DNA from: Mugil cephalus
Taxonomy: Eukaryota > Chordata > Actinopteri > Mugiliformes > Mugilidae
Assembly (NCBI RefSeq): GCF_022458985.1
Contig: NC_061776.1
Span: forward strand, 2,951,075 to 3,015,074
DNA: 64,000 nucleotides
Direction of reading: 5' to 3'
Shown: one piece after another, positions 34,186 through 62,106 of the stretch
How positions within the stretch are numbered: the first letter of the stretch is position 1
Layout: each line of letters begins with the position of its first letter
Position numbers and translations under genes: made by a program
The notes under the pieces: generated by a model
Told to the model about the DNA's origin: nothing
Databases searched by the model: none
The model's input: only the letters and a program-made list of their open reading frames with translations

Positions 34186-35553
34186 ATGGCTTCCAGATCA
34201 GAGGAGGATCTCTGCTGTCCGGTCTGTCAGGAGGTCTTCAGAGATCCTGTTCTCCTGTCATGTAGCCACAGCTTCTGTAAAGTCTGTGTGAAGAACTGGT
34301 GGAGACAGAATCCATTACACCAGTGTCCAGTTTGTAAGAGAAGAGCTTCAAGAGATGATCCACCGTTGAACTTGGTGTTGAAGAACCTGTGTGAGTCCTT
34401 CTTACAGGAGAGGGATCAGAGATCTCCAGAGGCTCTCTGCAGTCTGCACTCTGAGAAACTCAGACTCTTCTGTCTGGACCATCAGCAGCCAGTGTGTCTC
34501 GTCTGCAGAGATTCAGAAAAACACTCCAAACACAGATTCAGACCCATCGAAGAAGCAGCAGCAGATCTAAAGAAGAACCTTGAGGAAACTCTGGAGCCCT
34601 TAAAGAAGAAGTTAAAGGTTTATGAAGAAGTTAAAGTGAAGTTTGATGAAACAGAAAAACACATCAAGGTCCAGGCCCGACACACAGAGAGGCAGATTAA
34701 GGAGCAGTTCAAGAAGCTTCACCAGTTTCTAGCAGAGGAAGAGGAGGCCAGGATGGCTGCACTGAGGGAGGAAGAGGAGCAGAAGAGTCAGATGATGAAG
34801 GAGAAGATGGAGGCTCTGAGCAGAGAGATAGCAGCTCTTTCAGACACAGTCAGAGCCACAGAGGAGGAGCTGAGAGCTGAAGACGTCTCATTCCTCAACA
34901 ACTACAAGGCTGCAGTGGAAAGAGTCCAGCGCTGCCCCCTGCTGGATGATCCACAGCTGCCCTCAGGAGCTCTGATAGACCAGGCCAAACATCTGGGCAA
35001 CCTGGCCTTCAACATCTGGAACAACATGAAGGACCTGGTCTCCTACACTCCTGTCATTCTGGATCCAAACACTACTTATCCAGAAATGATCCTGTCTGAA
35101 GATCTGACCAGTGTGAGACGAGGCGATAAACAACAACTTCCTGATAATCCAGAGAGGTTTGATTGGTTCTGGTCTGTCCTGGGCTCTGAGGGCTTTAACT
35201 CAGGGACTCACAGCTGGGATGTTGAGGTTGGAGATAACACATTCTGGATACTGGGTGTGTTAGCAGAGTCTGTCCAGAGGAAGGGACGTATAGAGTCTGG
35301 ATTGTGGACAATAAGATTCCATGGAGGTAAATATGCAACTTTCTCACAAGCTTCTTCCATTGATCTCCCAATAGAGAAGAAGCTCCAGAGGATCAGAGTG
35401 AATCTGGACTGGAACAGAGGACAACTGTCCTTCTCTGATCTTGATACTAACACACACATACACACCTTCACACACACTTTCACTGAGAGGATGTTTCCAT
35501 ATATTAACACTGGGAAGAAAGTGAAGATATTACCAGTGAATCAGATCAGTTAG
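34186..35553 (+). CDS. TRIM-1: RING/B-box/coiled-coil/PRY-SPRY E3 ligase, TRIM35/A33-like
   Basis: 455 aa with the whole coding region in one exon. The C3HC4 RING uses Cys11, 14, 27, His29, Cys32, 35, 48 and 51. B-box 2 uses Cys86, His89, Cys97, His100, Cys105, 108, His114 and 117. A long charged coiled coil spans about 120-245, and PRY-SPRY runs from about 290 (LDPNTTYP) to the C-terminus. By family it should be a ubiquitin ligase that dimerises through the coiled coil and binds a ligand through SPRY; fish relatives are annotated as zinc-binding protein A33-like or TRIM35-like, and many such expansions act in innate immunity (inference here). The variable triplet after PERFD is Trp-Phe-Trp (328-330). 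It lacks the finTRIM start sequence. This is the first of five tandem copies. Confidence 0.92.
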
Positions 35554-36415
35554 AGATAAACAGGGTAATGATTTATGTGTATTACCTATAAAAGCTGAAG
35601 CCACAAGCATTAGAGTCACAAAATACTACAATATGTTAACGGAGCTTCTTATACAAAGACACAGTTAAGTTGAACCGGTTAGCAGACATGGGGCTAAACG
35701 GGTTAGCCTACTGTGGCATGGTAGCACACATGGCTAAAATATAAATGACACCAGTACAGCTAAACACCTGCCAGTTAACATACATGACGACATACAGACA
35801 CACCAAAAGTGAGAAAAGAGTCAACAAACAATGTCAAGAATAAAGTCCATGTCTCCTTTGGTCCGTTCCTGATACTCTGCAGAACCTCAAAGTTCTGTTA
35901 CTAAGAGTTACTCTGTGTTTGTGTGTGTCCATGATGATTTATTTATTTATTTATTTTCTCATGGTTGGCCCTAATACTCACCCATAGAGCAGAGAGCAGC
36001 TTCATTGTTTTACCTGATGTTTCAGTCAAATTTAAAAAGACTTGCTGAAGGATCCATTTTCCCTCTGAGACCACTAACAATAAACTGACTGCACAGCCTT
36101 TTATCAGACTTTCTGAGCTGGCAGGCATGCTACACACCCTTCTAAATGTAGAAAAAGCTCAAAACTATTGAAATAGTCAGTGGAAATCTTCCAACAGAAC
36201 TCCGGGAGCTGACGTTACTCTGCACTCTAATCACAACTCCACCATGTATCCTTTAATTTGACTTCTCTTTAGATAATAAACTGTTTTTATATCTGTCTCT
36301 CTTCAGCTGCTGCATCACGGCATCAGAACATACTGGAATGGGATTATAATTAGATGTGAAACATTTAAACAAAATACTGAGTAATTAAACTAATCAATAA
36401 GGGACATTTTAAAGA
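35554..36415. repeat. TRIM-1 3' flank, shared with TRIM-2
   Basis: Blocks at about 35930-36250 and 36328-36415 recur downstream of TRIM-2 at about 42690-43000 and 43015-43104 (GAGCAGAGAGCAGCTTCA, GGCAGGCATGCTACACA, GGGATTATAATTAGATGTGA). The duplication unit therefore included 0.9 kb or more of 3' flank. An AATAAA near 35840 may be a polyA signal. No gene is seen. Confidence 0.7.
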
Positions 36416-36604
36416 TGTAAAATATGTTTATTGTGTAATGGTTGATCAATAAACACATTAATGAATGAACTGAATTTCTGTCTTAATGTTCCTATTTGCT
36501 CTCAGTTGCTGGCCTCTAGTGGCGGCTCCTACAAACGACAACAAAAAAAATCCAAGATCCAACTTCTACGAAAAACACACAATTTAAATACACATTTAAA
36601 TAGA

Positions 36605-37465
36605 GGTGTTGAGGGGGCGTGGTGCATCAGCTGCTGGGGAGAGTTGTGGAAAGGGCTCAGAAGAGCAGCACCAGGCACACCTGCAGCTAGTTGCCTAATC
36701 ACTCTTCCCTTCTAACACTGTAGCGTACTGGACCTGCGGGCAGTCGGACAAGAGACGAGGAAGCTGACACCCAGACAGCAGCCAAAGAGAACAAGTAGCC
36801 TGCGATTGGCTGAGTGTTGGTGATTCCCTGTGTCTGAATAAAGAGCCCATAACCGGCTAAAGTGTCTGTGTGTGTGGTCTGTGAAGCTGGGGAACCCACG
36901 ATCCTCAGTCGTTCTTTGAAATGTTTGAGACAACAGCAGCGGCGTGTGGTTGGTCAGGAGCAGAGTGGGCTGTGGCCTGCTGCCCCTATTATCGGGTGAC
37001 GCACAGACAGCGGCGCTCTGTCTGCTGGCCTCCTCTTGGAGACAATATGGGGAACCGATTGGGATACTCGGCCGAGGACCACTGCCGCAGGTTCAGAGGA
37101 ACGAAGATGGGGCCCACCGACTGGCCGTTTGTATACGCACAGCAGCTGAGGGACGCAGCGAACAGATGGTTGCAGCCGTGGGAGTCCACGGGCGAGGAGC
37201 TGTTCGTGTTGGAACAGTTCATTGAGGGGTTCCCAGCTGGCACATCCGAGTGGGTGTGCTACCACCAACCCGGGGACCTGGCAGTGGCCATCGCCCTTGC
37301 AGAGGATCACCTGGACTAATGAGATAATTACCCAGTGGTTGGTACCAAAAAGCCGCCGGGATTATAACCCGATGGCTGGACATATGGGGTGTGATAAGAC
37401 TCTGAACTATGGCCCGATTCTATTGGCCAGGCATCCGGGGACAGTTTGCACCTGAGTGTGAAGTG
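36605..37465 (+). mobile_element. LTR retrotransposon relic (Gypsy-type gag fused to integrase)
   Basis: 36605-36905 looks LTR-like: it starts TGTTGAGGGGGCGTGG and has an AATAAAGAGCCC signal near 36837. An ORF at 36921-37319 follows whose second half has a SCAN-like gag pattern (FVYAQQLRDAANRWLQP, LEQFIEGFPAGTSEWV). A few bases later comes an integrase zinc-binding-like stretch (MAGHMGCDKTL, MARFYWPGI). Protease, reverse transcriptase and RNase H are missing between them, so a large internal deletion joined gag to integrase. It is dead. Confidence 0.6.
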
Positions 37466-37469
37466 TTTG

Positions 37470-37815
37470 GGACAAGGGTCAGAACCTCCAAGTCGGAGAC
37501 CACGGTGTTCTGTTGGAAAACGATGGAGTGTCCCCTTCGGGTTAGGGGTGAGTTCCTGCTTCAAGTGAGGCTGATGTTCACAAGTGATGGTAAAATGAGT
37601 TGAGGTTTGGTGCAGCAGCTGCACTAATGAAGGTGCTGTCTCTAACTGTCATGGTGAAAAGCAGATGAGCTGTAAGACGAAGTTTTTGTTTTACCAGTCT
37701 ATCTTTGTTCCAGTCCTCGTCTAAGGTCGTGAACTGTGAATAGTGACCAAAAAAATGGCTTTGAGGTTATAAGCCACTGAAATAAGGCTCCTCTGAAGGG
37801 TGGCTAAACTCAGCC
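37470..37815 (+). mobile_element. Second copy of the degenerate LINE 3' fragment
   Basis: It matches 33180-33560 closely (GGTCAGAACCTCCAAGTCGG, ACCAGTCTATCTTTGTTCCA) with stops and indels. Directly 5' is the LTR-element integrase fragment, and the two meet near 37465. Confidence 0.6.
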
Positions 37816-37884
37816 TTTCTATTTTTGAAAAATGCATGTGAAGAGTGGCTGCATGCCAGTAGCTCTGTGATTTTTTTTACCTTT

Positions 37885-38400
37885 TAAGTTTAAGTTTATT
37901 TAATTTATATAGCACCTTAAAAAGTAAAGAGCATTTGTACCAAAGTGCTTCACATTCAACATGTCATACAAACATGCAACTTTCAGATCAACATCACCGT
38001 CTCAACAAATGGAAAAACTATTTACACCCAAGGTGACCAGATAAGGAAATAAAACAAATCAAATGCCATTGAAAGCCAGGGAATAAAGACGGGTCTTGAG
38101 GTGTTTCTTAAAAGCCTCAACAGAGTCAGAACTCCTAATAGTCTCTGGCAGGCTGTTCCAGAGCCGAGGGGCTGCAGCAGAAAAGGCCCGGTCCCCTGCC
38201 TCTTTTTCCCCCAAACGTGGCACAGTCAACATACCACGGTCTGAGGATCTGAGGGTTCTGGTGGTGGTGTAAGGGGTGAGAAGCTCAGAGATATACTGTA
38301 TGAAGGGGCGAGACCATGGAGGGATTTATAAACAAGCAGAAGAATTATGAAGTCTATCCTAAAATGAACAGGGAGCCAGTGTAATGATGGTGTGTTCCAG
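37885..38400. mobile_element. Dispersed teleost retroposon segment
   Basis: Recognisable phrases of a very common fish repeat occur in order: TTATATAGCACCTTAAAAAG, CCAAAGTGCTTCACATTCA, GGCTGTTCCAGAGCCGAGGG, AAAATGAACAGGGAGCCAGT. It is antisense or non-coding. I recognise it as a dispersed element but cannot name the family. Confidence 0.5.
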
Positions 38401-38409
38401 AGATCAGCT

Positions 38410-38970
38410 GCCCAGAGTGAGGCCTGAGATTCTCACTGAACTTCAGCAGAAGTGCTGGGGATGCTGGGCTGGAGTTGGAGGTGTTGGAGGCCATCTGGGG
38501 AACATCTGGACTGTGTGCAGTTGTTGGGACCCAGAGGGAGTGTGTCTTGAAAAGTGCTTGGGAGACCTGGTTTGAGACTCTATGGGTCAATGGAGACACA
38601 CTCCTGGGGATTTGAGTTTACATCCCTTACTCAGCAGACAAAGAAATGCCATGCAACACGATCCATGCCAATGTTCAGGCACTGTTCTACAGGCACACTG
38701 TGGATGGATAAAAACTGTTGGCCATGCGAGTGGTCCTGCACTCGATGGATCTTAGCCTCCTGCCAGAGGGGAGTCTGTTAAATAGTCTGTATCTAGGGTG
38801 AGAGGGATGAACTCTTCAGAGTCCTGGAAGCGTACAGCTCGTCGAGAGACTAATTTTTTCTTTGTTACCTGTCCTGTAATACTGTGCTACTTCTTAATAG
38901 CTTATAACCTGCTCTTTCAGTAGACTCTTTGTCTACAGGAACTCAATCAACAATTAACCCTCTGAATCCC
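38410..38970. other. Intergenic, LINE-like traces only
   Basis: No gene is seen. Around 38690-38800 the text resembles a LINE tail (CTCCTGCCAGAGGGGAGT, GGTGAGAGGGATGAACTCTT), but it is too short and broken to assign. Confidence 0.3.
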
Positions 38971-38984
38971 AAGCCATTTTTGGC

Positions 38985-39690
38985 CGATTTTGGTATCTGC
39001 CACATTTTTACTCACTGTGATCTCATTTTTCTGTGCACAGTGAAGTCCTACACCTCTATAGATTCAGGACACATAGGGCTATAGGCTGATGTAACTCACT
39101 TTTGTCTCCATGAAATATAACAAAATTTAAAAGCTTGTAATCATCAGAAAAAAAGAAAAACGTAAATTGAATTTCTCTGATTTGATGGATTAGTGTATAC
39201 TACACAGTTTCAGGTACCCTCAAGCCTCAGGAACATAGGAAAAATATTGGTGGTTGCACAACATTCAGAGAATGTAAAAATTCTGAGACCTCTTTTGATT
39301 TTAGTAACTTTCGGCAGTTTTTTTTTCTGTTTCATTTTTACTCACTGTGGTCTCATTTTTCACTGTAATATGAAGTCCTACACCTCTATAGATTCAGGAC
39401 ACACAGGGCTACAGGCTAATGTAACTCAATTATGTCTAGATGAAGTGTAAAAAAGTTTTAAAGCCTGTAAATAATTAGAAAAAAGAAAAACGGAAATTGA
39501 ATTGATCAGATTTTTTTCTTGTAAAATATTCAAAAATTATGAACAACACATTTTCAGGTATCCTGAAGCATAAGAAACATGGGAAAAATATTAGTGGTTG
39601 CACTACATTCACAGAATATAAAAACTCTGAGACTTCTTTTGATTTTCATAACTTTCGGCCGTTTTTTAATCTGTTACATTTTGACTGGAG
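38985..39690. repeat. 330-bp tandem repeat, about two copies
   Basis: CATTTTTACTCACTGTG recurs 330 bp apart (about 39003 and 39333), with the following GAAGTCCTACACCTCTATAG, the TTCAGGTA.CCT region and ACTTTCGGC.GTTTTTT in the same order. A third copy breaks off after about 40 bp near 39690. AT-rich with no ORF of note. Confidence 0.8.
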
Positions 39691-40056
39691 CCAGATCATT
39701 GGTTCTGAGCGGCTATGACCCGGATGTTGCGTCTGTAAGGCACCACCCAGGGAAGAAAAGTTCGGCCAGTTGTTGAAGGGCGATCACATGCTGTCTGCAA
39801 ATCATTCAAGGCTCGCTGGAAGCAGGAAAGACCGTAGAGTTTTTGCCTTTTTACAGAATTAATCTAGAGCAAAGGGTTAATTTTTAAAGATGACGTTATA
39901 CCGAAGCGATGTTGATGAAATTTCGGAAAATTGGTCCGTTTTCCCGTAAAGTTTCGATATGTGAGACGTCGCCTCTGAGGCATTCAGGTACCCTCGGAAA
40001 CTTCAGAATCTCGCGATTGCGCAAGTCTCTACAGCTTTCAGATCGGACACTTTCAG

Positions 40057-40442
40057 CTGACGCAGCCTCTAAGATTAAACCCTTTGGACTGAAACACTCC
40101 CCGAATTACAGATCAAAGTTCCACAATTATCAGAGGAGTTCTGGTAAAGCTCCACCCCTCTCCTGATTTACCTGAGACAAACCAGAAAACAGATTATTTT
40201 TGTGTGTGACTAAAGAGAGAAACAGACGATCGGATTCAGCTTCAGACCAAACTAACACCTTCCTCTGAGTGAGTCCAGCTACAGGAGAGAAAAGTGGAAA
40301 CTACAACACTGCTGCTTCAAGCTGCTGACTCTCCACACACTGAAGGTGAGTTTGACCAAAAACAGGAAGTTAGTACAAGATAGGGGAGACATGACTGACT
40401 GGACTTTGTGTCTGCTGTGTTCCAGCTTCACTCAGAGACTAA
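40057..40442 (+). promoter_or_regulatory. TRIM-2 promoter, 5'UTR exon and 80-bp intron
   Basis: Same module as in TRIM-1. The intron is 40346-40425 (GT-AG, 80 bp). The GAAAAGTGGAAAC motif is at 40289-40301. Upstream, homology to the TRIM-1 module fades near the CTGACGCAGCCTCTAAG block. Confidence 0.65.
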
Positions 40443-41828
40443 ATGGCTTCCAGATTAGAGGAGGATCTCTGCTGTCCGGTCTGTCAGGAGGTCTTCAGAG
40501 ATCCTGTTCTTCTGTCATGTAGCCACAGCTTCTGTAAAGTCTGTCTGAAGAACTGGTGGAGACAGAATCCATCACACCAGTGTCCAGTTTGTAAGAGAAG
40601 AGCTTCAAGAGATGAACCACCATTAAACTTGGTGTTGAGGAACCTGTGTGAGTCCTTCTTACAGGAGAGAGATCAGAGATCTCCAGAGGCTCTCTGCAGT
40701 CTGCACTCTGAGAAACTCAGACTCTTCTGTCTGGACCATCAGCAGCCAGTGTGTCTCGTCTGCAGAGATTCAAGAAAACACTCCAACCACAGATTCAGTC
40801 CCATCGATGAAGCTGCGCAGCAGCATAAGAAGAACCTTGAGGAAACTCTGGAGCCCTTGAAGAAGAAGTTAAAGGTTTGTGAAGAAGTTAAAGTGAAGTT
40901 TGATGCAACAGAAAAACACATCAAGGTCCAGGCCCGACACACAGAGAGGCAGATTAAGGAGCAGTTCAAGAAGCTTCACCAGTTTCTAGCAGAGGAAGAG
41001 GAGGCCAGGATGGCTGCACTGAGGGAGGAAGAGGAGCAGAAGAGTCAGATGATGAAGGAGAAGATGGAGGCTCTGAGCAGAGAGATAGCAGCTCTTTCAG
41101 ACACAGTCAGAGCCACAGAGGAGGAGCTGAGAGCTGAAGACGTCTCATTCCTCAACAACTACAAGGCTGCAGTGGAAAGAGTCCAGCGCTGCCCCCTGCT
41201 GGATGATCCACAGCTGCCCTCAGGAGCTCTGATAGACCAGGCCAAACATCTGGGCAACCTGGCCTTCAACATCTGGAACAACATGAAGGACCTGGTCTCC
41301 TACACTCCTGTCATTCTAGATCCAAACACTGCTAATCCATATCTGATCCTGTCTGAAGATCTGACCAGTGTGAGATTAGGAGGAGATAAACAACAGCTTC
41401 CTGATAATCCAGAGAGGTTTGATTATTACTTATCTGTCCTGGGGTCTGAGGGTTTTAACTCAGGGACTCACAGCTGGGATGTTGATGTTGGAGCTACCAC
41501 AGTGTGGACACTGGGTGTGTTAGCAGAGTCTGACATCAGGAAGGGAAGCATAAGATCTGGATTGTGGAGAATAAGGCTCGATGAAGGTAAATACTCAGCA
41601 CGGTCATCACCAGATCCTGCCATTGATCTCCCAGTAAAGAAGAAGCCCCAGAGGATCAGAGTGAATCTGGACTGGAACAGAGGACAACTGTCCTTCTCTG
41701 ATCTTGATACTAACAAACACATACACACCATCACACACACTTTCACTGAGAGGATGTTTCCACACTTTGGGACTAGGGGTAAACTCCCATTGAAGATATT
41801 ACCAGTGAATCAGAGCAGTCACAGATGA
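40443..41828 (+). CDS. TRIM-2: RING/B-box/coiled-coil/PRY-SPRY E3 ligase
   Basis: 461 aa in a single coding exon, the longest copy because of an extra Gly in the RLGGDKQQ segment and a slightly longer C-terminus (SSHR). RING and B-box zinc ligands are all present. The coiled coil from about 155 to 290 is nearly identical to TRIM-1 at base level. SPRY is the most distinct of the five: the triplet after PERFD is Tyr-Tyr-Leu, and DVGATTVW replaces EVGDNT, with [12 protein letters not shown] and [14 protein letters not shown] at the later loops. A ubiquitin ligase function is expected from the family. The spacing of 6.26 kb from TRIM-1 start to TRIM-2 start includes retroposon insertions. Confidence 0.92.
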
Positions 41829-42690
41829 ACAGGATTATTATAAATGTGCATTATAAGGTTGGCCTGAAGAGGAAAACACAACGACATTTCAGATTACGGA
41901 AAACAGGGACAACACATCTTGTTTCTGATTGGACAGATCCCATTCTGAAATGGAAGATGATGTGATTTGTTGTTTCACTGCCGAGAAAGGACAGAACCCG
42001 ACAGTGTAACATCATTTCCTGTTTCTACTCTGGACAACTGTGTGGAAACACATGCAGAAATCTGGCAACGTATCATACTAATAACATGTACTGTGTCTAC
42101 ATTGACCATCAACAAAGCCTCCTTTTGGCAGAGAAACAACCAATCACATCAGAAACAAGAAGTGTTGTCCCTAACCATTTCCATAATATGAAATGTTGTT
42201 GTGTTTTGACCTTCAGGGTAACTGTAGTATTGGGCTGTTGTGATGTGATCAAAAAATTGTTGTTTTGTTGGCATGAATGTTTAGAGACAAGTCAAAGTCC
42301 CAACCTTAATCCAATAGAAATGCTGTAGCATCAGTTGATGAGAGGAAACCACAAACATCTCACAACTGAGGTGGTAGCATGCTACCGTTCAGTAGCATCC
42401 ATGTTACACAGCTAACACATTATTTGGCTAAGTTAACACCATTATTGGCTCTGCTCTCCACGGTATATTATGTCAAGAAAAAAGTCAATCTCTCCTTTGG
42501 TCCATCGCTAATTCTCTTCAGTACTTCAAAGTCCTAATACTGAGGATTAGAGTGTGATTGTAAGCTAAAAGAGAAAGGATTTCTTTGTCAGGCTTTCAGT
42601 CTGAAAATGTCAATTTCGATTTTATTTTCAATATTGTCGACTTCTTTCTTGACACATTGACTTTTTTCTCAAAGTGTGTCTCATTTTATT
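41829..42690. other. TRIM-2 3' flank with a Tc1-like trace
   Basis: No gene is seen. At 42285-42330 the translation SPNLNPIEML matches the SPDLNPIE block of Tc1 transposases, so a transposon fragment of 50-100 bp is likely. The remainder is AT-rich and unremarkable. Confidence 0.4.
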
Positions 42691-44063: not shown

Positions 44064-44300
44064 GTATCAGTGTTTGTTCGGTGATGTCCCCTCTCTGACT
44101 CATTGGACTGAACACAATATTGACGTGGGGGATGCTCAGCTGATTGAACAACAGTCTTGCTATATGGCCCTGTAAGTATTTAGATGCAGAGGTCGAGTAT
44201 ATGCTCCAAAACCATATTCTTTGTACTTCATAGTCCAGTTGGAGTTCTCCATGTGTTTTGGTTCTGCACAGACACAAGATCTGATTCGTTCCCCTTGCCG

Positions 44301-44406
44301 GGACTGATGGAGATAGAATCCATTACAGAATCCGTTACAACAGTGTCCATTTTGTAACAGAAGAACCACCTTAAAACTTAGTGTTGGAGAACCTGTGTGA
44401 GTCATG
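44301..44406 (+). pseudogene. TRIM RING-region pseudogene fragment
   Basis: The text GGAGATAGAATCCATTACAG, CAGTGTCCATTTTGTAACAG, CTTAGTGTTGGAGAACCTGT and GTGAGTC matches the segment of the five TRIM genes that encodes the last RING cysteines and the following linker (for example 34300-34400). It contains a short insertion near 44325 and lacks the bases for RASRDD. Only about 105 bp survives, and nothing of the B-box or SPRY follows. It is a relic of a lost array member or a partial duplication. Confidence 0.75.
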
Positions 44407-45130
44407 TCAGCCTGAAAACACACAGGATATTGAGGAAAGTTGTAGAAATGAATGAATGTTTCTAACTATGTGCTATTAAATTATGATACTAAGGCTAGGC
44501 TAACCAGTCTTGCTTTGTAGAGTATGAAGGTATTGAAACGCTATAACAGTATTACTTGTTAGAATTACATTTCAAAGATATTTCTTTAACTAGCCTCTGG
44601 ATGGCAGTATGGCTCCATGGTAGAGACTTATGATTAAAAAATTCATAGGCTAACTTCTTCATTATAAGGCCTAAACAAATGATCAAAACAGAGTTTTGAC
44701 ACTAATCACGAGCTGGGTATAGATTAAACATTATATTTTTGGTTACAAGTGTACATTTCGTAGTTTATGGTTCTAGTCAGAGAGAGGTGATGAAGTTCTA
44801 ATTTATATACGACGTTTATCACCATGTGGTATGACACCAGCATGTCTGGCCTTCTTATCTGTTTGGTGCCTGCATGTGGATTACACGTAAATGAGAAAAG
44901 TCTTAACCCTTTGTTTGTTGGCACGGGAATGTGCTTAAAAGCTTGTTTTATGGCTTTGTTTTATGGTCTCAGAAATCTGCAAAGGAAACAAAAACAGTCC
45001 TGTCCCTTATGGACTGTCGGGAGAAGTCCTCCCCTCCTGTTGGTTCAGGGAGAAATCAGATGTGTCCTCAGCCTAAGACTCCTTACTTTTATTTTATTTT
45101 ATCTTAATCTTATCTTATTTTAATGTATCT
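44407..45130. other. Intergenic between TRIM relic and TRIM-3
   Basis: AT-rich with no gene seen. An ORF at 44824-45123 shows no known domain. The 44980-45120 part, with a CTTAT/TTTTA-rich tail, looks like a retroposon end, but I cannot assign it. Confidence 0.3.
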
Positions 45131-45418: not shown

Positions 45419-45803
45419 CTGATGCTCCCTCTAAAATTAAACACTTTGGACTAAAACACTCCCTGAATAACACGTCAAAGTTCAACATTTATGAGAGTAG
45501 TTTTGATAAAGCTCCACCCCTCACCTGATTCACCTGAGACAAACTAGAAAACAGATTATTTTGGGTGTGACTAAAGAGAGAAACAGACGATCAGATTCAG
45601 CGTCAGACCAAACTAACACCTTCCTCTGAGTGAGTCCAGCTACAGGAGAGAAAAGTGGAAACTACAACACTGCTGCTTCAAGCTGCTGACTCTCCACACA
45701 CTGAAGGTGAGTTTGACCAAAAACAGGAAGTTAGTAGAAGATGGAGGAGACATGACTGACTGGACTTTGTGTCTGCTGTGTTCCAGCTTCACTCAGAGAC
45801 TAA
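45419..45803 (+). promoter_or_regulatory. TRIM-3 promoter, 5'UTR exon and 80-bp intron
   Basis: Same module as the other copies. The intron is 45707-45786, and GAAAAGTGGAAAC is at 45650-45662. The upstream homologous block also includes TATATCAATAAACTCATAGC, shared with TRIM-1 and TRIM-5. Confidence 0.65.
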
Positions 45804-47168
45804 ATGGCTTCCAGATCAGAGGAGGGTTTCTGCTGTCCGGTCTGTAAGGAGGTCTTCAGAGATCCTGTTCTCCTGTCATGTAGCCACAGCTTCTGTAAAG
45901 TCTGTCTGAAGAACTGGTGGAGAGAGAAACCATTACACCAGTGTCCAGTTTGTAACAGAACATCTTCAAGAGATGATCCACCTTCAAACTTGGCGTTGAA
46001 GAACCTGTGTGAGCTTTTCTTACAGGAGAGAGATCAGAGATCAGACGATCTCTGCAGTCTGCACTCTGAGAAACTCAGACTCTTCTGTCTGGACCATCAG
46101 CAGCCAGTGTGTCTCGTCTGCAGAGATTCAAGAAAACACTTCAACCACAGATTCAGTCCCATCGATGAAGTAGTAACAGAACTCAAGATGATCCTTCAGG
46201 AATCTCTGGAGCCCTTAAAGGAGAAGTTAAAGGTTTGTGAACAATTTAAAGTGAAGTTTGATGCAACAGAAAAACACATCAAGGTCCAGGCCCGAAACAC
46301 AGAGAGGCAGATTAAGGAGCAGTTCAAGAAGCTTCACCAGTTTCTAGCAGAGGAAGAGGAGGCCAGGATGGCTGCACTGAGGGAGGAAGAGGAGCAGAAG
46401 AGTCAGAGGATGAAGGAGGAGATGGAGGCTCTGAGCAGAGAGATAGCAGCTCTTTCAGACACAGTCAGAGCCACAGAGGAGCTGAGAGCTGAAGACGTCT
46501 CATTCCTCAACAGCTACAAGGCTGCAGTGGAAAGAATCCAGCGCTGCCCCCTGCTGGATGATCCACAGCTGCCCTCAGGAGCTCTGATAGACCAGGCCAA
46601 ACATCTGGGCAACCTGGCCTTCAACATCTGGAACAACATGAAGGACCTGGTCTCCTACACTCCTGTCATTCTGGATCCAAACACTGCTAATCCAGATCTG
46701 ATCCTGTCTGAAGATCTGACCAGTGTGAGACGAGGAGTTTACCAACAACTTCCTGATAATCCAGAGAGGTTTGATTGTAACTGTTCTGTCCTGGGCTCTG
46801 AGGGCTTCAACTCAGGGACTCACAGCTGGGATGTTGAGGTTGGAGATAACACGGTGTGGTTACTGGGTGTATTAGCAGAGTCTGTCCAGAGGAAGGGAGA
46901 CATAGGGTCTGGATGGTGGGGAATATGGTTCACTGAAGGTAAATACGGAGCATGGAAACTACCAGATCATTCCATTGATCTCCCAATAGAGAAGAAGCTC
47001 CAGAGGATCAGAGTGAATATGGACTGGAACAGAGGATATCTGTCCTTTTCTGATCTTGATACTAACACACACATACTCACCATCAGACACACTTTCACTG
47101 AGAGGATGTTTCCATATATTAACACTGGGAAGAAAGTGAAGATATTACCAGTGAAACAGAGCGATTAG
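45804..47168 (+). CDS. TRIM-3: RING/B-box/coiled-coil/PRY-SPRY E3 ligase
   Basis: 454 aa in a single coding exon. It differs from its neighbours by two small in-frame deletions: RSDDLCSLH instead of [10 protein letters not shown] before the B-box, and one Glu fewer in the coiled coil ([10 protein letters not shown]). RING has [12 protein letters not shown], and all zinc ligands are kept. The variable triplet after PERFD is Cys-Asn-Cys, and the SPRY loops read [22 protein letters not shown] and GAWKLPDHS. The C-terminus ([10 protein letters not shown]) is close to TRIM-1. It is an active gene by reading frame, with promoter module and splice sites intact. Confidence 0.92.
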
Positions 47169-50686: not shown

Positions 50687-51075
50687 CTGCGCTCCCTCCA
50701 AGATTAAACCCTTTGGACTGAAACACTCTCTGAATCACAGGTCAAAGTTCAACATTTATAAGAGGAGTTCCTGATAAGGCTCCAACCCCTCACCTGATTC
50801 ACCTCAGACAAACCAGGAAACAGTTTATTATTGTGTGTGACTAAAGAGAGACACAGACGATCGGATTCAGCATCAGACCAAACTAACACCTTCCTCTGAG
50901 TGAGTCCAGCTACAGGAGAGAAAAGTGCAAACTACAAGACTGCTGCTTCAAGCTGCTGACTCTCCACACACTGAAGGTGAGTTTGACCAAAAACAGGAAG
51001 TTAGTAGAAGATGGAGGAGAGCCATAACTGACTGGACTTTGTGTCTGCTGTGTTCCAGCTTCACTCAGAGACTAA
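50687..51075 (+). promoter_or_regulatory. TRIM-4 promoter, 5'UTR exon and 82-bp intron
   Basis: Same module. The intron is 50977-51058 (82 bp, two bases longer because of GAGAGCCATAAC). The GAAA-type motif is altered here: GAAAAGTGCAAAC at 50920-50932 has lost the second GGAAA core present in the other four copies. Confidence 0.65.
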
Positions 51076-52446
51076 ATGGCTTCCAGATTAGAGGACAATC
51101 TGTGCTGTTCGGTCTGTCAGGAGGTCTACAAAGATCCTGTTGTTCTGACATGTAGCCACAGCTTCTGTAAAGTCTGTCTGAAGAACTGGTGGAGACAGAA
51201 TCCATTACACCAGTGTCCAGTTTGTAAGAGAAGATCTTCAAGAGATGATCCACCGTTAAACTTGGTGTTGAGGAACCTGTGTGAGTCCTTCTTACAGGAG
51301 AGCGATCAAAGATCTCCAGAGGCTCTCTGCAGTCTGCACTCTGAGAAACTCAGACTCTTCTGTCTGGACCATCAGCAGCCAGTGTGTCTCGTCTGCAGAG
51401 ATTCAAAAATACACTCCAACCACAGATTCAGTACCATCGATGAAGCTGTAACAGATCTAAAGAAGATCCTTCAGGAAACTCTGAAGCTCTTAAAAAAAAA
51501 GATAAATGTTTGTAAACGAGTTAAAGTGAAATTTGATGAAACAGAAAAACACATCGAGGTCCAGGCCCGACACACAGAGAGGCAGATTAAGGAGCAGTTC
51601 AAGAAGCTTCACCAGTTTCTAGCAGAGGAAGAGGAGGCCAGGATGGCTGCACTGAGGGAGGAAGAGGAGCAGAAGAGTCAGATGATGAAGGAGAAGATGG
51701 AGGCTCTGAGCAGAGAGATAGCAGCTCTTTCAGACACAGTCAGAGCCACAGAGGAGGAGCTGAGAGCTGAAGACGTCTCATTCCTCAACAACTACAAGGC
51801 TGCAGTGGAAAGAGTCCAGCGCTCCCCCCTGCTGGATGATCCACAGCTGCTCTCAGGAGCTCTGATAGACCAGGCCAAACATCTGGGCAACCTGGCCTTC
51901 AACATCTGGAACAACATGAAGGACCTGGTCTCCTACACTCCTGTCATTCTGGATCCAAACACTGCTCATCCAGATCTGATCCTGTCTGAAGATCTGACCA
52001 GTGTGAGACGAAGAGATGAACAACAACAGGTTCCTGATAATCCAGAGAGGTTTAATTATCACTGTTCTGTCCTGGGCTCTGAGGGATTTAACTCAGGGAC
52101 TCACAGCTGGGATGCTGAGGTTGGAGATAACACAGTGTGGGAACTGGGTGTGTTAGCAGAGTCTGTCCAAAGGAAGGGAGATATAGAGTCTGGATGGTGG
52201 GGAATAAGGTTCTATGAAGGTGAATACTCAGCATGGTCACCACACGCTCTTTCCACCGTTCTCAGAGTAAAGACGAAGCTTCACAAGATCAGAGTGAATC
52301 TGGACTGGAACAGAGGAAATCTTTCATTGTCTGATCTTGATACTAACACACACATACACACCTTCAGACACACTTTCACTGAGAGCATGTTTCCTTACAT
52401 TGACACTCTGGATAAAGTGCCAGTGAAGATATTACCAGTGAAATAG
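51076..52446 (+). CDS. TRIM-4: RING/B-box/coiled-coil/PRY-SPRY E3 ligase
   Basis: 456 aa in a single coding exon. The N-terminal part is the most diverged: [25 protein letters not shown] in the RING (Ser replaces Pro after the double Cys, ligands kept), and [17 protein letters not shown] at the start of the coiled coil. It shares the EVYKDP/EIFKDP and VLTC features with TRIM-5. The triplet is Tyr-His-Cys in the context PERFN, and the SPRY loops read [20 protein letters not shown] and [14 protein letters not shown]. Cys251 of the otherwise constant QRCPLLDD segment is Ser here. Frame and splice sites are intact. Confidence 0.92.
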
Positions 52447-53275: not shown

Positions 53276-53289
53276 CTATTTATAAAGCA

Positions 53290-53670: not shown

Positions 53671-53699
53671 TTAAGTACAGGGCTAAAAGGCGTATAAAG

Positions 53700-55085: not shown

Positions 55086-55089
55086 CTCT

Positions 55090-55419
55090 TAATGCTATCG
55101 GAGTGGGAACCACCTCAGTGATAGGCTGATCAGAGTCTGCTTCGTGCAGTGACTAATGAAGTGGAGAACAGGGAAGAAGATGACAGGTAGGACCAGTTAC
55201 AACAGACAGTCTCCAAAGTTCCTCAGCACGGCATACTAGTGATCATGCGAGATATCAATGCCAAAGTTGCAAAATTTAAAAAAAGAAAGAATATGTGGGG
55301 AAATTTTTTTAAAAAAAATAGCCCGCGAGATGGGTACAACATTGTCCAGAGCAGATGGCTCTGCCAAACCTCCACCAAGAGAAGATGTCGCCAACATTGA
55401 TACCAGTCCCCCTACCCAT
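55090..55419 (+). mobile_element. Older LINE, endonuclease part (left of nested insertion)
   Basis: The translation near 55180-55280 includes LQQTVSKVPQHGILVIMRDINAKV, the conserved endonuclease region (usually GDxNAKVG) of a teleost LINE. The final Gly-Asp is changed to Arg-Asp. The frame runs to CCC ACC CAT-type codons at 55419, then is interrupted by the antisense element and resumes at 58567. Confidence 0.6.
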
Positions 55420-58400
55420 AGATAGATAGATAGATCTTTATTGTCATTGTCACGAGTACAACGAAATTAAAAGTGCCATCAGCCAGTGCATATGCATAAT
55501 AATAAAAATAAAAAGACAAATAAAAAAAAAAAAATAAATAAACAAACAAAACTAATAAATAAGAATAGCCACATTCTCACACATCACATCATTCATATTG
55601 ATTGAGGGTTGTTTTGATTGCATTGAGTTTTGTTATAGCTGTTGGGTAAAAACTGTCTCTGAGACGGTTAGTTCTTGTTCTTATTGCTCTGTATCGTCTG
55701 CCTGAAGGCAGCAGTGCAAACAGAGAGTGTCCGGGGTGAGAAGTGTCCTTTGTGATGTGTTGTGCTTTTTTGAGACAGCGGTCGCTGTGCAAGTCCTCCA
55801 GTGAGGGGAGAGGGCAGCCAATGATTTTTTGGGCTGTATTCACGACCCTTTGGAGAGCTTTCCTTTGAGCCACAGTGCTGCTGTTGTACCATACACAGAT
55901 GCAGTAAGTCAGTATGCTCTCTATGGAGCACTTGTAAAAGGACACCAGCAGTTTCTCCTTGATATTGTTCTTCCTGAGAACCCTCAGGAAGTACAGTCTT
56001 TGCTGGGCCTTTTTTATCAGCTCAAAGGTGTTTGCGTTCCATGTGAGGCCCTGTTCAATGTGGACCCCCAGGAAACGGAAGTCAGCTACCCTCTCCACAC
56101 ATTTTCCCCCGATGTTTAGTGATGCAATGTCCGTTTTTTTCCTCCTGTAGTCTATTATGAGTTCTTTTGTCTTTGAGTTGTTGAGGAGCAGATTGTTCTC
56201 CCTGCACCACACTGACAGCCACTCCACCTCATCTCTGTAGGCGGACTCGTCGCCTCCTGAGATGAGCCCCACCACTGTGGTGTCATCAGCAAACTTGATG
56301 ATGGTGTTGCTGTGGTGGGCAGAGGTGCAGTCGTATGTGTACAGACAATAGAGCAGGGGACTCAGCACACAGCCCTGTGGAGAGCCAGTACTAAGGCTGA
56401 GGGCAGTGGATGTATGTTTTCCCACCCTAACTCTCTGCTGTCGGTTGGTCAGGAAGCTCAGAATCCACATGCAGGTGGAGTGAGGGAGACCCAGGTCCCC
56501 CAATTTGTCCACCAGTCTGTGAGGGAGAATAGTATTAAAAGCAGAGCTGTAGTCCACAAAGAGCATCCGCACATAGCTCCCCTGCTGCTCCAGATGTGAC
56601 AGAGCAGCATGGAGGGCTGTGGTCACGGCGTCTTCTGTGGATCTGTTAGCTCTGTAGGCAAACTGATGGGGGTCAGAGCCAGGAGGGAGAAGTGCTGTGA
56701 TGTGACCCCGGACCAGTTTTTCAAAACACTTCGTCACCACAGGGGTTAGTGCCATTGGCCGCTAATCGTTGAGGCAAGAAATGTGTGGTTTCTTGGGTAT
56801 GGGGACTATGGTGGAAGATTTCAGGCAGGATGGGACTGTAGACAGGGCTAGGGACTGGTTGAAGATCCTGGTAAAGACCCCAGCCAGCTGATCGGCGCAG
56901 TCTTTCAGGACACGTCCAGGGACGCCATCAGGTCCAGCAGCCTTCCTTGGGTTGACGGCCCGCAGTGTGCGCCTCACCTCGTGTTCCTCTACAACGAGGA
57001 GTATGGTGTTGTGGGTCGCTTGATGTAGTGTGGCTGCCTGTGTTGGTTTCACCTCAAAGCGGGCAAAGAAGAGGTTCAGCTCCTCTGCCAGCGTGGCGTT
57101 GTCTTCCGCAGCTGCGAGGTTGGTCCTGTAGTTGGTGAGATGCTGGATTCCCTGCCACACCTGCCTGCTGTTGTTGCTGTCAAGATAGCCCTCTATCCTC
57201 CTCCTGTAGTCAGACTTAGCCATTCTGATGCCTCTCTTCAGGTTAGCTCGGGCTGTGCTGTAGACGGTCCAGTCCCCAGACCTGAAGGCGGTGTTCCTGG
57301 TCTTTAGCAGTTGTTGGACCTCCCGAGTCATCCAGGGCTTCTGGTTTGGGAAGACCCAGATGCGTTTATCCACAGCTACAGTGTCTATACAGTTCTTGAT
57401 GTAGCACAGTACACTGTCTGTAAAAAACCTCCAAGTCCTGATGTTCAAAAACATCCCAGTTTGTCCTGTCGAAACAGTCCTGCAGCTGCTGTGCCGCATC
57501 CTCGGGCCAGGATTTGATGGTTTTGGTGATGGTTGGAGCAGTTTTCCTGAAGGGGGCATAAGCAGGAATTAAATGCAGGGACAAGTGATCGGACTGACCC
57601 AGGTGTGGGAGTGGTCTAGCCCTGTAGCCTAGCTTGATGTTGGAGTAGACTTTGTCCAGGGCGTTAGCCTCTCTTGTAGCACACTTTACATGCTGGTGGA
57701 ATTTGGGGAGCGCTGTCTTCAAGTCTGCATGGTTGAAGTCCCCCGCTATGATGTGCACAGCATCTGGATAGATGCTCTGCAGATGGCTAATGCTGCCATG
57801 CAAAAGTCCAACAGCTGTTTTAGCATTAGCATCCGGTGGTATGTAAACAGCGGTTACCATGACTACGGTGAACTCTCTGGGGAGGTATGTTGGTCTGCAT
57901 CTAACAGTCACATACTCCAGGTCTGGGGAGCAGTGGCTGATGGCAGTCGCTGTGTTGGTACACCAGGTGTTGTTCACGTACACACAGAGCCCCCCTCCTC
58001 TGCTCTTACCGGAGTCTTCCGTTCTGTCGTGGCGCTGTACTGTGTAGCCTGCTAGCTCGATGGCAGAGTCCGGTACGTCTGGATGCAGCCAGGTCTCCGT
58101 GATCAGAAGAATACAGCTGTCCTTCACTGCGCTGTGAGATACAGCCCGTAGTCTCAGTTCATCCATCTTGTTTGCAAGGGATCTGGCGTTGGAGACAAAC
58201 AGGCTGGGGAGCGTTGGTTTGTGTGGTTGTCTCCGTAGCCTAGCTAGCGCGGCGGCCCTGCAGCCCCGCTTCTGCCTTCTCTCTCTACGCCGCCGACGCC
58301 TCCTCCCTGCTGGGATGGTAATCCACGGTGCGCCGGGGGTCCTCGCTATGTCCCCCGGTATGTTGAACAAGCGTTGAAAATCAGCTGTAACATCTTGTTC

Positions 58401-58562
58401 GTAGCGGGCTCCGATCGTCAGGAGATAGTCCCGACTGTATATGTTGTTTGTCCAACATGAAGAGTACGGAACACAAATCAACACGTACACTAACACCCAA
58501 ACATAGCACCGACCGAGAGTGCAATGAGCCGCTGCAACTACATGCGCCGCCATGTTGTTGTA
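55420..58562 (-). mobile_element. Rex1-like LINE, nearly full coding length, antisense
   Basis: Minus strand, read from 58553 down. An apurinic-type endonuclease domain has LFVSNARSLANKMDELR, ITETWLHPDV, IAGDFNHADLK and GQSDHLSLHL. A linker and reverse transcriptase follow, with [33 protein letters not shown] and catalytic [10 protein letters not shown], then a C-terminal region ending [19 protein letters not shown]. The tail is ACAATAAAGATCTATCTATC. Two lesions inactivate it: an extra T in a T-run near 57421-57427 (frameshift at the endonuclease-linker joint) and an in-frame TAG at about 56759-56761. All key catalytic motifs are otherwise preserved. CR1/Rex1-clade assignment is by motif recognition. 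Confidence 0.8.
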
Positions 58563-59830
58563 CCATGAAGAGGTAAAGCGTGCAAATTATGACATGAAGG
58601 GTGGGAAAGCTGGCAGCATAGATGTCATCCATGCTGAGATGCTGACAACAGATCTTATCATGTCTACCAAGGTTCTCACAGAACTGTTCAGAAGCATCTG
58701 CAAAAAGGAGACAATGTCTGCAGACTGGGACAAGGGACTGATTGCCAAACTGCCCAAGACAGACAACCTCCAAAACTGCGACAATTGGCCGGGGATCACA
58801 TTGTTGTCCATACCATCAAAAGTATTTTGTAGAATTGTACTTGGCAGAATTATGTCCGCCGTCAATCAAAACCTGAGAGAGGAACAGGCAGGATTTAGGA
58901 GAGAGAGGGGATGTACAGATCAGATCTTGAAGAGCCCTGAAGAACATTATTGAGCAGTGTGCAGAAAGGACTGTCACACTACACATTAATTTCATAGAAT
59001 TTCGAAAAGCCTTTGACATCCTACCTCCCCGTTGGATTGCAAACTTGTAGTGGCTGGGGAGCTTGTGTGTCTCAATGACCTCTAGAGGTATGCCAGTGGG
59101 AGATTTTAACTCCTGGCAGGGCCACCCACTCTGGACAGGTCAAAGGGTAGGGTCCACTGGTCGTTCAGGTTGGGGGTTAAGCACAGGGCTAACCCCTCTG
59201 TCTTGTAAAAACAAGCATGTTAGAAAAACAGCACCTGCTGCCCTATATGCCAGGAGGCATAACAGGGAGTAAGTAAAGTAAGTCTGACAGCCCACACCAT
59301 GGCACCCTATGGAAGGTCACAAGAGAGAAGACCATTTTTGGAGAACCTCCAAAAATGTTCTCACTGATGGAGCTGTTCTATCACCACTTTCAGTTAAGTG
59401 TAATATCCTGTCATAGAGTCTGGTGTGTGGCAGGGCTGTACCACGTCTCCAGTTCTCTTCCTGATGGCCATTGGGTGGGTGATGAGGAAGACAAAGGCCA
59501 ATAAAGGGGGCATCCAGTGGACTTTGTTTTCCCAGCGCAAAGACCAAGATTTTTCTGATGACCTTGCTGTTCTCGTCTCTAAATATACCCACACGCAGGA
59601 GAAAACTGACAAACTCAACCAGGATGCAAAGCAAACAGGACTGAACATCAGCCCTTCCAAAAACACAAGTGATGCGCATTCATGCTGCTCTAGATACACG
59701 AGTCGCAGAAGAATGCTGGTGAGTGACTGCAAACGACATGCAAATTGATTGATGCCTTCCACAATAGAGGCCTCCGGAAAATCTGCCACACCTTCTGACC
59801 TGAGAAGATCTCAAAGACTTGCATAAAATG
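58563..59830 (+). mobile_element. Older LINE, reverse-transcriptase part (right of nested insertion)
   Basis: Resumes the frame left at 55419 with EEVKRANYDMKGGKAGSID, followed by NWPGITLLSIPSKVFCRIVL and LREEQAGFRRERGCTDQI of the reverse transcriptase. A frameshift lies near 58935. A later block at 59425-59748 (DQDFSDDLAVLVSKYTHTQEKT) carries the FADD-equivalent as FSDD. There are many stops, so it is much older than the nested element. Family uncertain (not the same as Rex1). Confidence 0.65.
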
Positions 59831-60350
59831 ACCAAGTACACCAGTGTTTCCAGTGTTGCTTTTATTTTAAATGTCATTTTACATTTAAACCATTTAAACA
59901 GGAATGGTTTGAAGAGTTTCAGGTTTTGGAGTTTATCATAGTACAGAAACAGCTCTGGTTAAAGTTACCAATGCTCTCTTCACGGCTTCAGAGGATGGAC
60001 TTGTCTCTCTTTGAATCTTCTATTAATGCAAAAGTAAGTAATGAAGTTCCTCTGGGTTTTGTGCAAGGGTCAATAATATTCACATTGTATATCCCTATAG
60101 GAATATTACAGGAAACAAGGCATATACTTATATTTATCCATGAAAACAGATGGACAGATGGTAATTTAAAAATGCGGCACACATTCCCTTCACCGATGTT
60201 TCGTTAAGTTACCTCAAGATGATTATGATGAAGTGTGGAAAAGAAAAAGAAATGTAGAAAACAGTTAAGGGCAAAAAGTTTATATCAATAAAATCATGAC
60301 GCACACTGGAGCAACTCAGTCCACAATTAAACACCATCAGCTGATGCTGA
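59831..60350. other. Intergenic before TRIM-5
   Basis: 59920-60210 may be another LINE trace (SNEVPLGFVQGSIIFTLYI resembles a reverse-transcriptase PQGSILGPLLF block). From about 60215 the sequence returns to the TRIM upstream duplicate (AAGAAATGTAGAAAACAG, TATATCAATAAAATCAT). Confidence 0.4.
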
Positions 60351-60729
60351 GATTAAACCCTTTGGACTGAAACACTCTGAACACCTGAATAACACGTCAA
60401 AGTTCAACATTTATGAGAGTAGTTCTGGTAAAGCTCCACCCCCTCACCTGATTTACCTGAGACAAACCAGGAAACAGTTCATTGTTGTGTGCGACTAAAG
60501 AGAGACATAGATGATCAGAGCCATCTTCAGACCAAACTGACACCTTCCTCTGAGTGAGTCCAGCTACAGGAGAGAAAAGTGGAAACTACAACAGTGCTGC
60601 TTCAAGCTGCTGACTCTCCACACACTGAAGGTGAGTTTGACCAAAAATAGCAAGTTAGTAGAAGATGGAAGAGAGCCATAACTGACTGGACTTTGTGTCT
60701 GCTGTGTTTCAGCTTCACTCAGAGACTAA
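60351..60729 (+). promoter_or_regulatory. TRIM-5 promoter, 5'UTR exon and 82-bp intron
   Basis: Same module. The intron is 60631-60712 (82 bp, as in TRIM-4), and GAAAAGTGGAAAC is at 60574-60586. The acceptor is TTTCAG rather than TTCCAG. Confidence 0.65.
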
Positions 60730-62106
60730 ATGGCTTCCAGATCAGAGGAGGATCTCTGCTGTCCGGTCTGTAAGGAGATCTTCAAGGATCCTATTGTTCT
60801 GACATGTAGCCACAGCTTCTGTAAAGTCTGTGTGAAGAACTGGTGGAGAGAGAAACCAACACACGAGTGTCCATTTTGTAAGAGAAGATCTTCAAGAGAT
60901 GATCCACCTTCAAACTTGGTGTTGAAGAATCTGTGTGAGTCCTTCTTACAGGAGAGAGATCAGAGATCTCCAGAGGCTCTCTGCAGTCTGCACTCTGAGA
61001 AACTCAGACTCTTCTGTCTGGACCATCAGCAGCCAGTGTGTCTCGTCTGCAGAGATTCAAGAAAACACTCCAACCACAGATTCAGTCCCATCGATGAAGC
61101 TGCAACAGATCTAAAGAAGATCCTTCAGGAAACTCTGGAGCCCTTAAAGAAGAAGTTAAAGGTTTATGAAGAAGTTAAAGTCAAGTTTGATGAAACAGAA
61201 AAACACATCAAGGTCCAGGCCCGACACACAGAGAGGCAGATTAAGGAGCAGTTCAAGAAGCTTCACCAGTTTCTAGCAGAGGAAGAGGAGGCCAGGATGG
61301 CTGCACTGAGGGAGGAAGAGGAGCAGAAGAGTCAGATGATGAAGGAGAAGATGGAGGCTCTGAGCAGAGAGATAGCAGCTCTTTCACACACAGTCAGAGC
61401 CACAGAGGAGGAGCTGAGAGCTGAAGACGTCTCATTCCTCAACAACTACAAGGCTGCAGTGGAAAGAGTCCAGCGCTGCCCCCTGCTGGATGATCCACAG
61501 CTGCCCTCAGGAGCTCTGATAGACCAGGCCAAACATCTGGGCAACCTGGTCTTCAAAATTTGGAACAATATGAAGGACCTGGTCTCCTACACTGCTGTCA
61601 TTCTGGATCCAAACACTGCTCATCCAAGACTGATTCTGTCTGAAGATCTGACCAGTGTGAGATTAGGAGATAAACAACAACTTCCTGATAATCCAGAGAG
61701 GTTTTATTATAACTGGTCTGTCCTGGGCTCTGAGGGCTTTAACTCAGGGACTCGCAGCTGGGATGTTGAGGTTGGAGATAACAAATGGTGGGAACTCGGT
61801 GTGTTAGCAGAGTCTGTCCAGAGGAAGGGAAACGCACGATCTGGATTGTGGAGAATATTGTTCTATGAAGGTAAATACTCAGCATGGTCACCACCAGATA
61901 ATTCCAATGATCTCCCAGTAAAGAATGAGCTCCAGAGGATCAGAGTGAATCTGGACTGGAACAGAGGACAACTGTCATTCTCTGATATTGATACTAACAA
62001 ACACATACACACCTTCAAACACACTTTCACTGAGAGGATGTTTCCATTCATTAACAGTGTGGATAAACTCCCACTGAAGATAATACCAGTGAATAAGAGC
62101 AGTTAG
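60730..62106 (+). CDS. TRIM-5: RING/B-box/coiled-coil/PRY-SPRY E3 ligase
   Basis: 458 aa in a single coding exon. RING reads [20 protein letters not shown] and ends ECPFCKRR (Phe for Val between the last ligands). B-box and coiled coil are almost the same as TRIM-1, with one Asp-to-His change (ALSHTVRA). The variable triplet is Tyr-Asn-Trp in the context PERFY, and the SPRY loops read [21 protein letters not shown] and [24 protein letters not shown] has Arg where the other copies have His. It ends [18 protein letters not shown]. Expected function as for TRIM-1. It is separated from TRIM-4 by a 9.65-kb start-to-start distance because of nested LINEs. Confidence 0.92.

Follow-up and report, generated by a model that had tools for sequence, protein, structure and literature searches.

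We analyzed a 64,000-nucleotide stretch of the Mugil cephalus genome (the window; C7:2951075-3015074, in a searched genome of 635 Mb on 24 contigs) that carries an array of closely related TRIM genes. The five-gene array described in the initial annotation was readily recovered, as five open reading frames (ORFs) of 454 to 461 amino acids (aa) without internal stops, all five with Pfam matches to RING, B-box, PRY, and SPRY. We call them T1 to T5:

34186..35553, + strand: T1 TRIM gene, one coding exon, 455 aa (ORF and Pfam)
40443..41828, + strand: T2 TRIM gene, one coding exon, 461 aa (ORF and Pfam)
45804..47168, + strand: T3 TRIM gene, one coding exon, 454 aa (ORF and Pfam)
51076..52446, + strand: T4 TRIM gene, one coding exon, 456 aa (ORF and Pfam)
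60730..62106, + strand: T5 TRIM gene, one coding exon, 458 aa (ORF and Pfam)

RING, B-box, coiled coil (RBCC), and a C-terminal PRY-SPRY follow one another in T1 to T5 in the order typical of TRIM proteins, and the C-terminal domain has the PRY-SPRY fold that goes with membership in that family. The TRIM_CC Pfam score lies above the cut-off in three of the five (T1, T3, and T5) and below it in T2 and T4. A single B-box stretch is matched in all five, so that they lack the two B-boxes described for the most extended finTRIMs. T1 to T5 are probably RBCC-PRYSPRY TRIM E3 ligases, a predicted activity for which the RING matches are the basis.

Each coding exon is preceded by a predicted intron of the 5′ untranslated region (UTR):

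34089..34168, + strand: predicted 5′ UTR intron of T1, GTGAGT...CAG ends
40346-40425, + strand: predicted 5′ UTR intron of T2, GTGAGT...CAG ends
45707-45786, + strand: predicted 5′ UTR intron of T3, GTGAGT...CAG ends
50977-51058, + strand: predicted 5′ UTR intron of T4, GTGAGT...CAG ends
60631-60712, + strand: predicted 5′ UTR intron of T5, GTGAGT...CAG ends

The strict intron pattern was matched at 22 of the 39 family loci with enough upstream sequence and unmatched at 17. We doubt a retrogene origin because, although the coding part is intronless, such a predicted intron of 80 to 82 nucleotides precedes it in all five genes. DNA identity among the copies is 89.6 to 92.4% over a stretch that starts 380 to 430 bp ahead of the ATG and ends shortly after the stop codon. 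Their surroundings share few alignable stretches, which are 74 to 85% identical (96% in one of 57 bp) and may represent shared repeats. Thus, the gene bodies are younger, or more homogenized, than what surrounds them. A relic of another TRIM copy, from the RING/linker part, lies within the array (44325..44425, + strand).

The array runs on beyond the five genes first described: the next copy lies beyond the window, at C7:3018105, and at least 43 intact close copies are found on C4, C7, and C11. They come from a protein search of the fish's own genome in which 92 of 1120 candidates were scored and 95 matches listed, so that all family counts are lower bounds. At least 45 matches were whole-length, with 82 to 100% identity, and 43 of these had intact frames of 454 to 471 aa (at least 29 on C4 at 28.9-30.28 Mb, 8 on C7, and 6 on C11). 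The other two, C4:30208152 (three stops) and C11:27227947, were dropped for broken frames, and neither shorter matches (e.g., C4:29719908, C11:27070797, and C7:3144444) nor frames under 440 aa were aligned. The matches listed also included more distant relatives, with 56 to 69% identity on C4 (15-18 Mb), C5, C16, and C22 and 47 to 50% on C8. Many PRY matches, a good share of them with frames of about 550 to 600 aa, lie at C2:29.8-33.9 Mb; three ORFs there (L002, L008, and L044) have a different N terminus and are possibly of the finTRIM or bloodthirsty type. Family-wide results below refer to the 43 intact genes.

Variability and selection in the PRY-SPRY domain

The initial annotation singled out three residues after PERF(D/N/Y) as different in every copy. 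Taken as strings, the triplets do differ among all five, at the place described:

35164..35172, + strand: T1 triplet, WFW
41424..41432, + strand: T2 triplet, YYL (T2 residues 328-330), aligned with BTN3A1 W350-H351-Y352
46776..46784, + strand: T3 triplet, CNC
52057..52065, + strand: T4 triplet, YHC
61708..61716, + strand: T5 triplet, YNW

Column by column, however, they hold only three, four, and three residue types. In no column of the five-gene alignment do all five copies differ, and of the eight columns with four residue types, one (T2 residue 329) belongs to the triplet. The family as a whole has 27 distinct triplets, in keeping with a hypervariable site, but entropy is higher than at any triplet position at T2 residues 300, 354, 356, 369, 371, 378, 380, 385, 387, 443, and 445. 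Entropies were computed over all 43 genes for columns lettered in at least 60% of them; 15 PRY-SPRY columns exceed 2 bits, versus one elsewhere (T2 residue 126, within the coil's first part). The triplet presumably lies in or next to the variable loop VL1, as placed in TRIM5alpha.

Variation was also seen among the five in the loops after EVGDN, RKG, and KYS/KYG, as had been claimed. The supposedly fixed SPRY framework is indeed the same in all five for a 12-residue string and for LGVLAES, but QRIRVN is replaced by HKIRVN in T4. Similarly, the near-constancy ascribed to the RING, B-box, and most of the coil fits the later coil and linker (residues 153-289, 14 of 137 columns varying) but not the RING (22 of 60). 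The B-box region varies in 10 of 42 columns, the first part of the coil (T2 residues 123-152) in 18 of 30, and the PRY-SPRY in 71 of 163.

All ten of the TRIM21 and BTN3A1 contact residues from the literature that can be placed in the alignment are found among the 15 PRY-SPRY columns of highest variability (hypergeometric 1.1e-12). The entropies quoted here are those over all 43 genes; those computed along with the pocket alignment used 38, as an anchor string is missing in five. BTN3A1 W350 and H351 are named binding-site residues in the available text of PMC4337483. Y352, which aligns to the third triplet residue, is outside the published contact lists, as far as these were accessible, and was excluded from the ten pocket codons. 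Judging from the alignment, variability extends over the whole pocket, and the triplet is one patch of it. Its place on the binding face is borne out by the match to W350-H351-Y352 but not by modeling, since the structure is unreliable there: two models had a mean predicted local distance difference test score (pLDDT) of 63 and 65, and the first third of the domain was unreliable in both. Along the modeled strands, hypervariable residues alternate (354/356, 376/378/380, and 385/387).

We estimated nonsynonymous and synonymous divergence (dN and dS) without a tree, with standard errors (SE) by gene jackknife and with either the PRY-SPRY dS or the codons' own dS as the denominator. At the ten pocket codons, dN was 7.22 (SE 0.63) times the PRY-SPRY dS and 3.69 times their own dS. 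The corresponding values were 4.00 (SE 0.35) and 4.09 for the triplet and 0.82 (SE 0.05) and 0.87 for the remaining PRY-SPRY. The mean proportion of nonsynonymous differences (pN) at the pocket codons, 0.512, was reached by none of 100,000 random ten-codon sets from the domain. The five window genes alone gave a pN of 0.505 and a proportion of synonymous differences (pS) of 0.176 in the pocket, versus 0.110 and 0.113 for the remaining codons of the domain.

Triplet and pocket thus lie above neutral, as the initial annotation would have it, and site model M8 was preferred over both M8a and M7 in the two gene sets. Twice the log-likelihood difference for the PRY-SPRY was 38.6 over M8a and 40.1 over M7 in the five genes, and 581.5 and 637.0 in the 43, where M8 assigned an omega (dN/dS) of 6.6 to 18% of codons. 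All three triplet codons had a posterior above 0.95 in the 43 genes, and codons 329 and 330 in the five. Eight null sets were simulated from the fitted M8a; two lacked recombination, and in the others the tree labels were reshuffled at intervals of 10 codons (four sets) or 5 codons (two sets). The statistic reached at most 32.6 (M8a) and 49.3 (M7) in these sets, which bound it and do not provide a p-value. Diversified recognition is therefore well supported. The proposal that it is carried on one effector body fares less well, as dN/dS in the RING is about 1 or above and the constancy of the coil appears to come from gene conversion (see below).

The copies probably also differ in how their parts are combined. 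At 47 two-state sites, the linkage measure r2 falls to 0.03 beyond 15 bp. In the PRY-SPRY (19 sites), all four gametes are present in 84% of the pairs of sites separated by at least 15 bp, with a mean r2 of 0.031, compared with 51% and 0.10 for two recombination-free simulations and 67 to 82% and 0.02 to 0.03 for simulations with reshuffled trees (four examined of six made). Third codon positions over the whole gene gave 81% and 0.034. Since the share of 0.84 exceeds even that of the reshuffled-tree simulations, recurrent mutation at selected sites probably also contributes, and tract lengths therefore cannot be read from these data. Over the whole gene, r2 falls with distance (0 of 1000 permutations). 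Mantel tests were mixed: the RING was nearly uncorrelated with PRY and SPRY 346-400 (r of -0.01 to 0.11) and reached 0.20 with SPRY 401-452, neighboring PRY-SPRY parts gave 0.18 to 0.40, and coil versus PRY gave 0.39. The four-gamete and r2 values give good grounds for regarding the copies as mosaic through exchange.

A number of observations weigh against this picture of selection and exchange. Within the PRY-SPRY, r2 is flat over distance (values at least as low occurred in 736 of 1000 permutations). Silent change is itself raised in the pocket (mean pS of 0.220 versus 0.117; 426 of 20,000 random sets as high), which is why omega with the codons' own dS is 3.7 rather than 7.2. TRIM21 F450 and D452 and BTN3A1 K393 land in alignment gaps, the columns adjoining gaps (369, 385, 393, and 443) are less securely aligned, and pLDDT is below 50 for at least the first 45 domain residues. 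The simulated nulls had an overall omega of 0.30 to 0.42, lower than the 1.36 of the data. Positive-selection statistics also exceeded the nulls for the RING plus B-box (95.2) and for the whole coil with linker (121.9), and the later coil plus linker gave a signal of 15.0; either selection extends past the pocket, or the test is inflated in those regions. As the nulls used PRY-SPRY parameters only, we claim selection for the pocket only. RING plus B-box codons have an M0 omega of 0.98 together with a positive-selection signal (T2 residues 5, 9, 23, 41, 44, 46, 61, 111, and 122), so that the effector side may be diversifying as well, or the test may be inflated there by recombination. Lastly, the core of the interferon-stimulated response element was absent within 1 kb upstream of four of the five genes, and the single core, in T5, compares with 0.29 expected over all five upstream kilobases, which leaves an interferon-response promoter unsupported.

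Uniformity of the later coiled coil

The stretch encoding the later coil forms a cassette that is almost the same in all five genes:

34663..35066, + strand: T1 coiled-coil cassette, no mismatch in 404 bp to L081, a paralogue on C16
40920..41323, + strand: T2 cassette, 1 mismatch in 404 to T1
46278..46678, + strand: T3 cassette, shorter by one codon than the other four
51553..51956, + strand: T4 cassette, 3 mismatches in 404 to T1
61207..61610, + strand: T5 cassette, 6 mismatches in 404 to T1

Across the family, codons 153-270 have a dS of 0.014 and a dN of 0.014, compared with 0.154 and 0.218 for codons 346-400. Selection at the protein level spares silent change, and the low dS of codons 153-270 thus argues for recent common descent of that stretch. 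The C16 paralogue offers a sharper view. L081 is about 75% identical to T2 overall (69% for the protein), and its dS to the family ranges from 0.70 to saturation in the RING, B-box, first part of the coil, and PRY-SPRY; it drops to 0.04 for the later coil and to 0.01 for the linker. The run of 404 identical bases common to L081, T1, and others ends abruptly at strongly diverged sequence, and shuffling the T2-L081 matches 2000 times yielded runs of at most 52. Identical runs of at least 200 bp with L081 occur in 32 of the 43 genes; none was found with the outgroups L082 and L083. In a DNA search with the 411-bp stretch of T2, all 40 candidates scored, out of 122, were 99 to 100% identical over 409 to 411 of the 411 bases, on C4, C7, C11, and C14.

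GC content at third codon positions (GC3) is 0.67 in the cassette versus 0.48 elsewhere and is higher in all 43 genes, as GC-biased conversion would predict, but in three outgroup genes the linker is also GC-rich (0.86), and the coil, at 0.59, is not set apart from the rest (0.55 to 0.69). The low dS, the tract shared with L081, and the DNA search make a strong sequence-based case that gene conversion, acting within and between chromosomes, would have caused the identity of the later coil.

A model of the family and its alternatives

We consider it likely that T1 to T5 belong to a young, expanding fish TRIM family shaped by diversifying selection on the pocket and ectopic gene conversion on the later coil. 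Diversifying selection would drive amino acid change at the canonical PRY-SPRY pocket, triplet included, and the copies would probably recognize different ligands. Ectopic conversion would keep overwriting some 400 bp that encode the later coil, the linker, and the start of the PRY; elsewhere, exchange would shuffle variation, and the pocket would stay diverse because selection favors different residues. In TRIM5alpha and TRIM21, a coiled-coil dimer presents paired PRY-SPRY domains, and clustering of the ligand switches on ubiquitylation by the RING. By analogy, the coil would dimerize the present proteins so as to display two PRY-SPRY domains, and a repeated or clustered ligand would gather RINGs and start ubiquitylation. 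The copies would differ in the target that they probe, with a pathogen or altered-self protein bound in the pocket. The uniformity of the coil may be a by-product, in that long identical tracts recombine most and divergence and selection protect the pocket.

Alternatively, homogenization may itself be selected, with equal coils letting paralogues heterodimerize and pair different pockets combinatorially, which we regard as unlikely. A similar multimer argument exists for zebrafish NLR NACHT domains, in the available text of PMC4852459. A separate cluster of ten genes on C8 (L084-L093; 0.62-0.72 and 1.6-1.72 Mb), 47 to 50% identical to T2, combines a uniform coil sequence of its own with a variable SPRY: dS is 0.00 to 0.04 in the later coil and 0.04 to 0.17 in the PRY-SPRY, and its first 45 residues show a similar uniformity, with a dS of 0.01. 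This recurrence is compatible with a by-product and with selected homogenization alike. In contrast, two observations favor the by-product. A truncated copy on C14 (L094; C14:25098600-25101000), in which neither RING nor B-box occurs over the 2.4 kb read and the open frame ends inside the SPRY, has been homogenized as well, its coil tract matching L016 and L037 on C4 at 378 of 378 positions while its PRY-SPRY matches any of the 43 genes at 438 of 486 at best. In addition, dN/dS of the tract is near 1, as a passive process predicts. It is rather doubtful that coil identity serves as a device by which members pair, so that n pockets would give as many as n(n+1)/2 bivalent receptors in a cytosolic, germline form of combinatorial recognition. 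Should mixed dimers indeed form through identical coils, the family would offer a testable cytosolic combinatorial receptor set.

Strong purifying constraint on the DNA or protein of the later coil, in place of gene conversion, is improbable. Coiled coils do dimerize TRIM proteins, and the region is the best-kept long part both in the ten C8 genes and in L082 and L083, where its dS is 0.26 and 0.19, versus at least 0.43 elsewhere (the exception being the short L083 linker, with 0.01). Nevertheless, silent and replacement differences are equally rare in the family tract, L082 and L083 differ in the later coil by a dN of 0.14 to 0.15, the identical run with L081 stops abruptly, and the truncated C14 copy is perfectly matched in the coil and not in the PRY-SPRY.

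There is very little likelihood that constraint has been relaxed, with the SPRY of redundant copies drifting and its variability neutral. This would suit the dN/dS of the remaining PRY-SPRY (0.82 to 0.87), the whole-gene value of 1.09 in the five window genes, and the existence of broken and partial copies such as C4:30208152. It does not suit a pocket dN of 3.7 times its own dS and 7.2 times that of the domain, nor framework strings that are near fixed, nor intact frames in 43 of 45 whole-length copies, although choosing whole-length matches favors intact ones. Artefacts of assembly or polishing, a concern with near-identical gene arrays, are the most improbable source of the identical tracts, because cross-mapping is unlikely for L081 at about 75% identity to T2 and a like pattern recurs in the C8 cluster.

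Elements of the favored combination of pocket selection and coil conversion have precedents, as described in the available parts of the papers cited here. The B30.2 domains of fish TRIMs are known to be under positive selection (PMC2657112, PMC3137616); being common to trim35/hltr, ftr, and btr, the positively selected B30.2 sites present here are not specific to one group. The zebrafish trim35/hltr genes (PMC3137616) are likewise expanded fish TRIMs with B30.2 domains, with positive selection at about 10% of B30.2 sites and hypervariable sites concentrated in the β2-β3 loop (VL1). Their B30.2 showed no recombination by GARD, whereas the copies studied here appear mosaic, with interchromosomal homogenization of the coil. 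FinTRIMs (PMC2657112) also form a large fish family whose B30.2 variable regions are under positive selection, but the most extended ones are described with two B-boxes, in contrast with the one B-box match and single coding exon found here. The pockets of TRIM21 and BTN3A1 (PMC6722209, PMC4337483), whose contact residues align with the hypervariable columns, each serve one kind of ligand (Fc and phosphoantigen, respectively), while the pockets described here differ from copy to copy.

Uneven conversion has been established for zebrafish NLRs (PMC4852459), in which the NACHT domain is homogenized within groups and the B30.2 diversified. Those genes are NLRs with a NACHT domain rather than TRIMs with a coiled coil, and their NACHT conversion stays within groups. 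In fish clustered protocadherins (PMC1852091), regional conversion homogenizes one part (>99% identity) while another diverges, and the converted part has a higher GC3; conversion was inferred there, as here, from silent-site identity beside diverged parts. Protocadherins, however, act in cell-surface adhesion and convert within a subcluster, whereas exchange here crosses chromosomes. In young primate TRIMs, one breakpoint and limited conversion were reported (PMC3228819). As far as accessible in the open-access literature on gene conversion or concerted evolution of TRIM coiled coils, we found no description of a homogenized TRIM coil.

The family's variation marks, residue by residue, the same pocket as that used by TRIM21 and BTN3A1. 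The analysis also separates two causes of a constant scaffold with a variable tip, constraint and gene conversion, which look alike at the protein level. It calls for caution, as fish TRIM trees and whole-gene dN/dS can mix modules of different histories.

Other features of the window

Outside the TRIM genes, the window holds the following:

55589-58586, - strand: remnant of the long interspersed nuclear element (LINE) type with a reverse-transcriptase match, between T4 and T5
28832-30316, - strand: C2H2 zinc-finger ORF with 12 zf-C2H2 stretches and a 36-bp tandem repeat at 30054-30179
18837-19421, - strand: ORF with an Est1 DNA/RNA-binding match (E value of 1.2e-5), possibly one exon of a conserved gene adjacent to the array
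6321-7726: minisatellite-like sequence with long overlapping open frames made of repeats of a 13-letter protein string, probably not a gene

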